Source of the DNA: Bacillus sp. ISL-34
Lineage (GTDB): Bacteria > Bacillota > Bacilli > Bacillales > DSM-1321
Reading direction: 5' to 3'
DNA length: 64,000 bases
Assembly (NCBI RefSeq): GCF_018613325.1
Contig: NZ_JAGGQJ010000004.1
Location: 62,001-126,000, forward strand
Shown here: piece by piece, positions 23,927 to 57,592 of the stretch
Layout: each line of letters opens with the position of its first letter
How positions within the stretch are numbered: position 1 is the first letter of the stretch
Notes under the pieces: model-generated
Database searches by the model: none
What the model was told of the DNA's origin: nothing
Seen by the model: only the letters and a program-made list of their open reading frames with translations
Translations under genes and position numbers: made by a program

Positions 23927-24701
23927 TTTTTTAATAACTTACTTTAAAGCAAACGATTGTGAAATACTGGATAATACACCAACCCACCTTACAGTCCAAT
24001 TGACGATTGAAATGGATAAAGAATTAATGAACAGACCCTTTTATTGGCATTATCTAGAAAAAACAGGTGGCGTTCCAAACCCGGCACGGATGACTTTCAT
24101 TACCGATCCAGAACAAGCTCCATCCGATTTAAAGGGAGAAATGATTCATTTTGGCTCCCCTCGCCTTCATCAGATTATTCAATCCACCAAAAAGCTGGCA
24201 GGGTATACTAGACTTTTTGAGGATACCCCTCCATCAAAAGGGGGAAATAACCCTTTGTATCCTTGGCTAACCCTGAATGTGAAAATATCCTATCAATGTG
24301 ACCGTAAAAAGGATACCTTCATGTCGATCGGACTGAATTTAATCTCAGGTGAGATCATGGAAAGGTTTCACCATCGGGTTTTACCGATAAAGGTCACCCC
24401 AAAAATACCGGATTACTCCTTTACGCTTTCACCGCTCATCATGCCCAAGAGCGGATTGGCAAGACTGGATACATACATCAGAACCAGTTTCGAGGATGAT
24501 GACCATTCCTGGGCGGAAGAAGCAATGCTTCGCTGGCAGAATGACTTGAATTTATTGGAGCATTTTTACAAGGATATGGAAGAAAAAAGTGAGAGCTATT
24601 TTACCGAAAAAGATGCCTTAAAAGCTCAATATGAACCCAACATCCGAATATCCATCATCAACGGAGGATTATTTTACCTTTCAGATAGGGCGTTGGGATA
24701 A
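23904..24701 (+). CDS. yqhG: YqhG family protein
   Basis: A 265-residue soluble protein conserved next to yqhH in Bacillus, function unknown. It contains the family stretch MDKELMNRPFYWHYLEKTGG near residue 35. The ATG at 23904 follows AAGGTGAGG; a GTG nine bases earlier overlaps that site. Overlap with yqhH suggests a joint role. In B. subtilis sinI-sinR-tasA follows this gene; here yqzE does. Confidence 0.92.
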   Translation: MQQREIHDFLITYFKANDCEILDNTPTHLTVQLTIEMDKELMNRPFYWHYLEKTGGVPNPARMTFITDPEQAPSDLKGEMIHFGSPRLHQIIQSTKKLAGYTRLFEDTPPSKGGNNPLYPWLTLNVKISYQCDRKKDTFMSIGLNLISGEIMERFHHRVLPIKVTPKIPDYSFTLSPLIMPKSGLARLDTYIRTSFEDDDHSWAEEAMLRWQNDLNLLEHFYKDMEEKSESYFTEKDALKAQYEPNIRISIINGGLFYLSDRALG

Positions 24702-55104: not shown

Positions 55105-55267
55105 AACTAAAACGCCCCTTTCTCATTTCATTTATAATTTGACTTTATCTCTCCATAATTACCTCATTACTGATGGTTAAAACCAATGAAGCAGAATACA
55201 GGTTGTTTTATTTTTCCCATATAGTTAAAATTGGTTAGGAATCTTATATAGTTAGGTGCTGAAAACA

Positions 55268-56035
55268 TTGAACATATTCAAACAACTGTGGGTAAGCTTA
55301 TATTCTCCTAAAGATATCGCTTCCTTTCAAAACCAAGGTATCGGGAAAACGATTTTATTCGTTTTCTTTATAAGTCTCATTGCCTTTCTCCCTTCAGCTT
55401 TTTATTTCGGGACAATGGTAGTTGACGGGATAGATGCCATGCACGAAACAGTATCCGAAGACTTACCGGCATTTGAAATCAAAAATGGCACGTTGACGAC
55501 TGAACAAGATGAGCCATTTAGCCTGAATAAAAACGGATATCAAATATTTGTAGATGGCACGGGAGCCTTGACCCCGGAAGAAGTAGCTGCAAAAGCTGAT
55601 GAGGCTGTCGCGCTTTTAAAGTCTGATCTGGTTTTCGTATCCGGAGGCAACGTGCAATCCTCTCCATATTCAGTTCTGGAGGGAGACAATCAGGAAATAT
55701 CCACTTGGCTTGATTCAGTTGAATCTGTGCTTCCTATCATCCTTACATTGCTTCTAATTATATTATACCTGTTTACCGCTAGCGGAATCTTCATTAAAGT
55801 GACAATCCTTGCCGCTTTCGGTCTTTTTTTCAAAAATGCTCTTGGCCGTCCTCTTTCCTATAGGCATCTATGGAGAATCGGTGCTTACAGCATAACGCTT
55901 GCCACCGTATTCTTCACCATCATGGATGCTTTTCAAGCAATTGTACCATTCGCTTCCATCATTAGCTGGTTTGTGACACTGATGATGTTATATTTATCCA
56001 TTAAAGAAACATCAGCCAATAAGATCACAAAATGA
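55268..56035 (+). CDS. yqgB: DUF1189 membrane protein YqgB
   Basis: A 255-residue protein from a TTG nine bases after AGGTG. It has a membrane helix at about 28-48, an extracytoplasmic domain (about 50-155) and four further helices (about 160-245). The family resembles maltodextrin-type membrane proteins but has no known role. It is followed by a very strong hairpin. Confidence 0.87.
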   Translation: MNIFKQLWVSLYSPKDIASFQNQGIGKTILFVFFISLIAFLPSAFYFGTMVVDGIDAMHETVSEDLPAFEIKNGTLTTEQDEPFSLNKNGYQIFVDGTGALTPEEVAAKADEAVALLKSDLVFVSGGNVQSSPYSVLEGDNQEISTWLDSVESVLPIILTLLLIILYLFTASGIFIKVTILAAFGLFFKNALGRPLSYRHLWRIGAYSITLATVFFTIMDAFQAIVPFASIISWFVTLMMLYLSIKETSANKITK

Positions 56036-56056: not shown

Positions 56057-56104
56057 AGACTGTAGGCAAACTCGATGAGAATCAAGTTTGCCTACAGTCT
56101 TTTA
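56057..56104 (+). terminator. 16-bp hairpin after yqgB / left end of repeat block
   Basis: AGACTGTAGGCAAACT (56057-56072) pairs perfectly with 56085-56100 and is followed by TTTT. It looks like a terminator for yqgB. The same sequence resembles the left end of the IS1182-like element at 5490 (TGTAGGCAAA here, TGTAGACAAA there). Confidence 0.7.
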
Positions 56105-56111
56105 AGGATTT

Positions 56112-56390
56112 GTAAAATTCGAACGTTCTTTTGGAACGTAGGGCACTCACTCCAATCAACTTTGTTTTAAAATTCAGATGGAACTTTACTATGATTTCAG
56201 GACAAGATTCCTGGTTATTGACTGTCTTATTTAAACCCTCAATGGATTGAAGAAATTTGCGACACTCCTGCCGAATAACTGGCTAGCCGAGACACCGCAG
56301 GCGCTTGCGCGAGGAGGCATGGCAGACAGTCGGCGGCGGAAAGGGAGCGGATTTCTGAAATCAGCTGGAACGTTTTTAACTTGAGGGTTT
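56112..56390. repeat. 279-bp tandem repeat, unit 1
   Basis: The unit runs from GTAAAATTCGAACG to AACTTGAGGGTTT. It contains GTAGGGCACTCACTCC, then TTGCGACACTCCTGCC, CCGAGACACCGC, a GGCGCTTGCGC palindrome, GGAGGCATGGCAGACAG, and GGAAAGGGAGCGGATTTC. Unit 2 follows directly with only scattered differences. Confidence 0.9.
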
Positions 56391-56668
56391 GTAAAACTCA
56401 AACGTTCTTTTGGAACGTAGGGCACTCACTCCAATCGACTTTGTTTTAAAATTCAGATGGAACTTTACTATGATTTTAGGACAAGATTCCTGGTTATTGA
56501 CTGTCTTATTTAAACCCTCAATGGATTGAAAAAATTTGCGACACTCCTGCCGAATAACTGGCTAGCCGAGACACCGCTGGCGCTTGCGCCGAGGAGGCTT
56601 GGCAGACAGTCGGCGGAAAGGGAGCGAATTTCTGAAATCAGCTGGAACGTTTTTTAACTTGAGGATTT
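56391..56668. repeat. 279-bp tandem repeat, unit 2
   Basis: It matches unit 1 over its whole length apart from single-base changes and small gaps (for example CGGCGGCGGAAAG in unit 1 versus CGGCGGAAAG here). The start of a third unit follows at 56669. Confidence 0.9.
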
Positions 56669-56835: not shown

Positions 56836-56944
56836 CCCCTTTTGTCTGCAAACTGAGATTCGACCACCTTGCTAAAGAATAAAATCGGGTATCCATGCCT
56901 TTGCAGCATATGACTATAGTCATCATTTTTTTATATCTACTTAA

Positions 56945-56978
56945 TTCGACAAAATACTCACTAAGTTATTCCTATACT
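56945..56978 (+). promoter_or_regulatory. Spo0A-type promoter of the SinI-like gene
   Basis: TTCGACAAAA at 56945-56954 is a perfect 0A box (TTTTGTCGAA on the minus strand). A -10 TATACT lies at 56973-56978, and the expected -35 position (56950-56955, CAAAAT) is poor and covered by the box. This is the layout of SigA promoters activated by Spo0A~P, such as spoIIG. Confidence 0.55.
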
Positions 56979-57011
56979 TATGGTTGAAATAGTATTTAAG
57001 AGGTGATAGAC

Positions 57012-57146
57012 GTGAAGGAGAGTCATATTGATGTACAGTGGTTGTTACTCATAATGGAGGCAAAAAAGAGTGGTCTGACCCTAAAGGAAATTCGCTCCTT
57101 TCTTAGCACTAATTCAAATAATAAGAATGTTACTAAACTGAAATAG
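57012..57146 (+). CDS. SinI-domain peptide (anti-repressor-like)
   Basis: A 44-residue peptide from a GTG with AGAGGTG six bases upstream. Residues 6-31 (IDVQWLLLIMEAKKSGLTLK, then EIRSFL) match the SinI/SinR dimerisation helix-hairpin: the Trp, EAK and EIRxFL positions are conserved. SinI binds and inactivates the biofilm repressor SinR in B. subtilis. No sinR is adjacent. It is too short for most gene callers. I am confident of the domain, less of the partner. Confidence 0.75.
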   Translation: MKESHIDVQWLLLIMEAKKSGLTLKEIRSFLSTNSNNKNVTKLK

Positions 57147-57259: not shown

Positions 57260-57592
57260 TTGAAACGGCTACTGCTTTTTATCTCATTCTGTTTCACTTT
57301 ATTTATTATTTATTTTGATATGACTACGGGTACCCTGCCGGCTTCCCATCCACCGGCCTCTACAGGCGAACCGGCCGTCCCGGCCAGCCAGCCTGCATCC
57401 GTACCATCTGCCGCTTATAAAGAAATTACCATGAAACCGGGTGATACCTTACTTTCCATCGTCGAAACGGAAAAAGGCGGATCCAATCAGCCAATCGAAA
57501 CGATCATCTCTGACTTTCAAAGTTTGAATGAAGGATTGAAGCCCGAAGATATGCAGATTGGCAAATCATATAAGATTCCCGTTTATAAATAA
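57260..57592 (+). CDS. yqfZ: LysM-domain protein (YqfZ-like)
   Basis: A 110-residue protein from a TTG eight bases after GGGAGG. A signal anchor (about 3-20) is followed by a Pro/Ala/Ser-rich linker and one LysM domain (about 53-108; EITMKPGDTLLSIVE to GKSYKIPVYK), which binds peptidoglycan. It lies before ispG like yqfZ in B. subtilis. Confidence 0.87.
   Translation: MKRLLLFISFCFTLFIIYFDMTTGTLPASHPPASTGEPAVPASQPASVPSAAYKEITMKPGDTLLSIVETEKGGSNQPIETIISDFQSLNEGLKPEDMQIGKSYKIPVYK

Follow-up and report, generated by a model that had tools for sequence, protein, structure and literature searches.

A SinI-domain peptide gene apart from sinR in Peribacillus, a candidate additional antirepressor behind a conserved 0A box

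In Bacillus, the SinI-SinR switch sets single motile cells against biofilm. In B. subtilis, sinI is under Spo0A control, as the earlier note on this DNA had stated and as an excerpt of PMC3163267 states. A second SinI-type antirepressor of B. subtilis, SlrA, also binds to SinR; its gene has a transcriptional input of its own, the repressor YwcC (excerpt of PMC4238804). For Bacillus methanolicus MGA3, a '(c-di-GMP)-sinI' entry is given in an excerpt of PMC4342826. In the open-licence literature, no other title on a riboswitch-controlled sinI or on Peribacillus SinI was found among the matches listed.

The gene described here lies in the window (the whole stretch of 64,000 nt that was analysed, from Bacillus sp. 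ISL-34). Its product is, like B. subtilis SinI, short, two-helical in its predicted model and matched by the Pfam SinI domain PF08671. It differs from that system in that the gene is not beside sinR and has another gene neighbourhood, that the peptide is under the NCBIfam SinI cut-off, and that the genome has its sinI elsewhere. B. subtilis SinI and SinR also have E before the tryptophan, where the window peptide family has an invariant Q. Compared with SlrA, whose gene is under YwcC, the window gene has a promoter with a 0A box instead; by analogy, it may be regarded as comparable to SlrA, but with a Spo0A-type promoter. The features of the locus were as follows.

55256..56035, plus strand: DUF1189 gene, the 5' neighbour (PF06691, 244.3 bits)
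56910..56923, no strand assigned: 14-nt palindrome ATGACTATAGTCAT, upstream of the 0A box and beginning 35 nt before it
56940..56954, plus strand: invariant 15-nt block CTTAATTCGACAAAA around the 0A box, the longest invariant run in 20 orthologues
56945..56951, minus strand: 0A box TGTCGAA, an exact consensus match, invariant in 20/20 aligned orthologues
56973..56978, plus strand: -10 element TATACT (TATACT in 19/20 orthologues, TATAAT in 1/20), 21 nt beyond the box in 20/20
56998..57007, plus strand: Shine-Dalgarno AAGAGGTGAT, read from the sequence, largely conserved across orthologues
57012..57146, plus strand: SinI-domain peptide gene, GTG start, 44 aa, PF08671 match, orthologues in the genus
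57260..57592, plus strand: yqfZ-like gene, the 3' neighbour, from the ORF list, with a LysM-type motif (19/20 orthologous loci have the motif downstream)

The earlier note had read an orphan 44-residue SinI-like peptide before yqfZ, and the frame 57012-57146 was present, matching PF08671 at 38.2 bits with a cut-off of 31.4 (37.4 bits in the genome search). A longer variant of the frame, with a GTG at 57003 and 47 aa, is in the ORF list; the spacing of AAGAGGTGAT suits the GTG at 57012, and the same Shine-Dalgarno overlaps the GTG at 57003. The gene lies between the DUF1189 gene and yqfZ-ispG and not adjacent to sinR, which is on contig C24. The genes downstream are those that we take to be yqfZ-like and ispG-like; the former had no Pfam match. 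Across the 20 orthologous loci, ispG was downstream in all and the DUF1189 motif was upstream in 17; of the three loci in which it was not found, two are short (1917 and 2099 nt). The stretch from the DUF1189 gene to the peptide gene contains two direct repeats of 209 nt, 56102-56310 and 56381-56589, that are 96% alike and are accompanied by shorter further copies; several relatives have no such repeats at that place.

The usual sin block had been described as missing from its place after yqhG, and the search agreed. The end of yqhG is at 24701, comG genes come next (both names are our assumption), and no sinI, sinR or tasA was seen after yqhG in the window. The window's contig had no PF08671 match besides the window peptide, and the TasA/camelysin family PF12389 had 0 matches in the whole genome at E 0.001; the B. 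subtilis control does match. A profile search of the genome gave seven PF08671 places, which were SinR, sinI, an SlrR-like protein, the window peptide, an orphan on contig C1, and peptides on C8 and C11. The gene had been proposed as a relocated or additional anti-repressor; because sinI is found convergent to sinR on another contig (C24), a relocated sinI was ruled out and the gene is additional.

The SinR-type partner expected elsewhere in the genome was found by a search for SinR homologues, which gave SinR and the SlrR-like protein. SinR matched 1b0n_A at E 2.7e-39 and was aligned to B. subtilis SinR over its whole length. Its tail scored 47.5 bits on PF08671, and the C-terminal tail of the SlrR-like protein scored 31.7 bits. 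The latter protein is an HTH plus a SinI domain and is encoded beside a gene that is presumably EpsA-like (Wzz-like). The NCBIfam SlrR cut-off of 250 was reached by neither regulator (71.4 and 53.7, with 53.7 for the SlrR-like protein), and the two proteins are called SinR and SlrR-like on the grounds of PDB match and position. The small PF08671 peptides on C8 and C11 (L002:1477-1623, minus strand, and L005:1465-1614, plus strand) are closer to the SinR C-terminal tail than to SinI and are possible SinR tail mimics. The contig of the window also carries the gene for Spo0A, whose recognition helix appears to resemble that of B. subtilis.

The window peptide scored 20.3 bits on the NCBIfam anti-repressor SinI equivalog NF046031, under its cut-off of 80. 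Its best PDB sequence matches were SinI of 1b0n (1b0n_B, E 0.0042) and 5tmx (E 0.0053), followed by SinR chains (E 0.062 to 0.12) and MerR-family chains (0.087 to 0.098). At the sequence level, the match to B. subtilis SinI is modest. MerR domains, at 21.3 and 20.7 bits in Pfam, were under the cut-off and were taken as helical look-alikes. Alignment of 15 of the 19 intact orthologues gave 15 invariant columns (M1, K2, D7, Q9, W10, L13, A17, G21, L22, K25, E26, I27, F30, L31, and S35), and the hydrophobic pattern was kept by all 15. The predicted model has two helices, at residues 2-19 and 24-35, with pLDDT of about 94 (residues 11-20) and about 92 (21-30) and a pTM of only 0.49. This two-helix shape is the one given for the SinR-SinI four-helix bundle (excerpt of PMC3163267). 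The model had no match at E up to 10 using Foldseek against the PDB, which is not surprising because the peptide has only 44 residues.

Of 36 genomes of the same genus (Peribacillus), this one counted, 20 had the gene together with its 0A box, and in one of these the gene was truncated. In a peptide search of the 36 genomes, 31 had some match at E 0.001, several being other SinI paralogues. The orthologue was intact in 19 genomes (L037-L055, own included), and the twentieth (L058, from G017) had lost part of the second helix. In the 18 other genomes, the intact orthologues were 52-86% identical to the window peptide and had the same start region, Shine-Dalgarno, and promoter. Among the 16 genomes without gene plus box, two had a diverged copy or remnant: L060 (G012) is a diverged copy at the same place that keeps TCGACA and TATACT, and L064 (G004) has only a peptide remnant left, with the 0A box gone too. 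G017 retains an intact box beside its degraded peptide, so the two are not conserved together in every case. Ten related loci were from seven Peribacillus, two 'Bacillus sp.', and one Acidaminobacter (58% over 26 residues), the last being taken as chance or a distant relative. Of seven genomes from the family's other genera, six had weak matches (E 9.1e-4 to 3.9e-7) and one had none.

On the plus strand, 56945-56951 reads TTCGACA, the complement of TGTCGAA, which is the 0A box consensus as printed in an excerpt of PMC10134886. A perfect 0A box over a poor -35, with TATACT as the -10, had been claimed from the letters, and the claim holds for each part. The box is at 56945-56951, the hexamer at a 17-nt spacer from TATACT is CAAAAT (56950-56955), sharing two bases with the box, and a sigma-70 scan with thresholds of at least 9 of 12 and a spacer of 16-18 did not list the promoter of the peptide gene. 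This absence is as expected if an activator is needed at the promoter. In the window, TGTCGAA was observed 9 times with 9.00 expected from shuffles, so the box alone proves nothing and significance from the 7-mer count was ruled out; it is conservation in 20 orthologues that makes the box meaningful. The promoter alignment had 20 rows (19 distinct) and 105 columns, with L060 and L064 left out, and the rows are related genomes and so not independent events. An invariant run of the length of CTTAATTCGACAAAA was reached in 430 of 100000 column shuffles, a test that takes no account of how conserved columns cluster. Among the orthologues, the start codon stands at distances from the box that differ by up to six bases, compared with a fixed 21 nt to the -10 in 20/20. 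A conserved 0A box at a fixed distance to the -10, as looked for in a member of the Spo0A regulon, was present in 20/20 orthologues. The whole 15-nt block was kept in L051-L055, though their peptides are just 52-59% identical to the window's.

Upstream of spoIIG in the same genome, GTGACA and TATACT are separated by 22 nt (counted by eye), and no exact 0A box was found in the spoIIG upstream stretch searched. The pattern TTCGACA-N(20-22)-TATAMT had the window site as its sole match genome-wide and was rejected as a finder of other Spo0A promoters because the reversed control also gave 1, leaving no yardstick. For these two reasons, the genome yields no known Spo0A promoter as a positive control. 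The palindrome without its two central bases, ATGACTNNAGTCAT, was exact in 15 of the 20 orthologues, with one-base variants in the other five, and it starts 34-35 nt before the 0A box across them; ahead of it, 2 of 80 columns of the 20-row alignment were invariant. Since ATGACTATAGTCAT/ATGACTNNAGTCAT has a single place in the whole genome, no regulon could be read from it and ATGACTNNAGTCAT was dropped as a shared operator. The palindrome may also be a weak terminator, with a five-base stem then a T run, though it was absent from the terminator-scan list.

The best explanation of the window gene, and one that we consider reasonably probable, is an additional SinR-family antirepressor, a SinI paralogue activated by Spo0A~P. 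In starvation, Spo0A~P would bind the single perfect 0A box standing in place of the -35 element and would recruit sigma-A RNA polymerase to TATACT. The two-helix peptide would pair with its homologue in SinR or the SlrR-like protein, the C-terminal hook, and would in this way break the repressor tetramer and derepress the matrix genes; it would act beside sinI and not in its stead. Antirepression of SinR under Spo0A~P is the most likely function because the core is kept, the model has two helices, and SlrA provides a precedent. Starving cells would probably have one more means of turning off SinR, the biofilm repressor. The direction of regulation, the partner, and the effect are those that we infer from the locus.

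Several other explanations were weighed. The partner might be wholly or mainly the SlrR-like protein and not SinR, with the peptide tuning chaining, motility or eps, and the presence of such a regulator, with a C-terminal tail matching PF08671 (31.7 bits) and a presumably EpsA-like neighbour, fits this; yet nothing in the sequence picks one partner, the SinR tail scores higher (47.5 bits), and SinR aligns at full length with B. subtilis SinR, and we regard this partner as unlikely. It is rather more doubtful that Spo0A~P represses, in which case binding of the box at the -35 region would block RNA polymerase and the peptide would act in growing cells. By position, the box does overlap the -35 hexamer place, but the sigma-70 scan gives no good -35 without the box, and both the fixed 21-nt distance and the similar spacing upstream of spoIIG (counted by eye) agree with activation.

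The invariant block could also be the site of another factor, with its likeness to a 0A box being accidental. The 7-mer is as frequent in the window as by chance, the conserved 15 nt extend past it on both sides, and the palindrome, which is conserved as well, hints at a further factor at this promoter; however, the block holds the exact 0A consensus, and even L060, a more diverged locus, retains TCGACA and TATACT, and we give this reading a slim chance. It is very improbable that the frame arose by chance or is a decayed, functionless relic: just 44 codons and the degraded copies in the relatives G004 and G017 would suit a relic, but intact orthologues in eighteen other genomes, 52-86% identical and alike in start region, Shine-Dalgarno, and promoter, and the hydrophobic pattern kept by 15 aligned orthologues argue against it. 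Judged by its sequence, the candidate antirepressor gene is real and conserved, and it belongs to a known kind of gene that here has a new location and promoter logic of its own.

The other SinI-type genes of this genome differ from the window gene in what precedes them. The two riboswitches that matter here were as follows.

C24:16652-16737: c-di-GMP-I riboswitch (L004), precedes sinI
C1:22986-23067: c-di-GMP-I riboswitch (L006), precedes the orphan SinI-type gene

These Rfam matches scored 70.4 bits before sinI and 69.7 bits before the C1 orphan, with a gathering score of 35, and the window gene had no Rfam riboswitch match within 1.5 kb (L003). With 150 of 391 first-look candidates scored, at least three c-di-GMP-I riboswitches were found in this genome, two of them before SinI-type genes, and none was found in the 14 control genomes, including B. 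subtilis. The third (L067, C22:270933-271023) precedes a small frame with paired cysteines. Riboswitches and SinI places were compared in the 36 genomes using 150 of each among the matches listed, and at least 52 riboswitches in at least 32 of the 36 genomes stood 36-62 nt ahead of a SinI-domain match on the same strand. At least 31 riboswitches preceded a match with an opposite-strand PF08671 match within 700 nt, and at least 21 preceded orphans; G003, G012, G015, and G026 had no riboswitch-SinI pair among the matches listed. The sinI of this genome is thus like that of B. methanolicus MGA3 in being preceded by a c-di-GMP riboswitch, and differs in that the arrangement is spread over the genus and also includes orphan paralogues, with the window gene having no riboswitch.

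Leaders were found by motif in loci L001-L066, giving 24 distinct leaders, of which only 40 nt were folded. In 22 of the 24, the last bases of the aptamer pair with part of the Shine-Dalgarno in a hairpin just past the aptamer; the exceptions were L009, whose hairpin is of another sequence and ends just before the Shine-Dalgarno, and the C1 orphan (L006), which has no hairpin of this kind. Because the hairpin pairs the Shine-Dalgarno with the aptamer end, the leaders suggest that c-di-GMP switches translation on at these SinI genes, and at sinI it would do so by freeing the Shine-Dalgarno. Upstream of the sinI riboswitch, a 0A-like box with one mismatch, TTTTGTCGGAT, was present in 13 of the 21 distinct sinI loci compared, own included. 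A 0A box before the orphan riboswitch gene was dropped because none was conserved upstream in the alignment of 19 of the 20 loci. Among the orphan-riboswitch loci, L117 was without a riboswitch by motif and L125 without a SinI frame by motif; TGTCGACT is common to the orphan riboswitch locus of this genome and L125.

Since sinI and the second orphan have c-di-GMP riboswitches, the window gene is probably a purely Spo0A-driven input to the SinR switch, and SinR antirepression in the genus seems to be divided between paralogues that answer to different inputs. The chances appear evenly balanced that SinR control is spread over SinI paralogues with a sensor each, namely Spo0A only for the window gene and a c-di-GMP riboswitch for sinI and the orphan. 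If true, Spo0A~P would drive one SinI copy and c-di-GMP would drive others via riboswitches, so that this second messenger would reach the SinR biofilm switch directly through RNA. One switch would then respond to several inputs through extra copies of its smallest component, a peptide of about 44 residues, and the paralogues would be a natural peptide set for asking how specificity for SinR versus SlrR arises.
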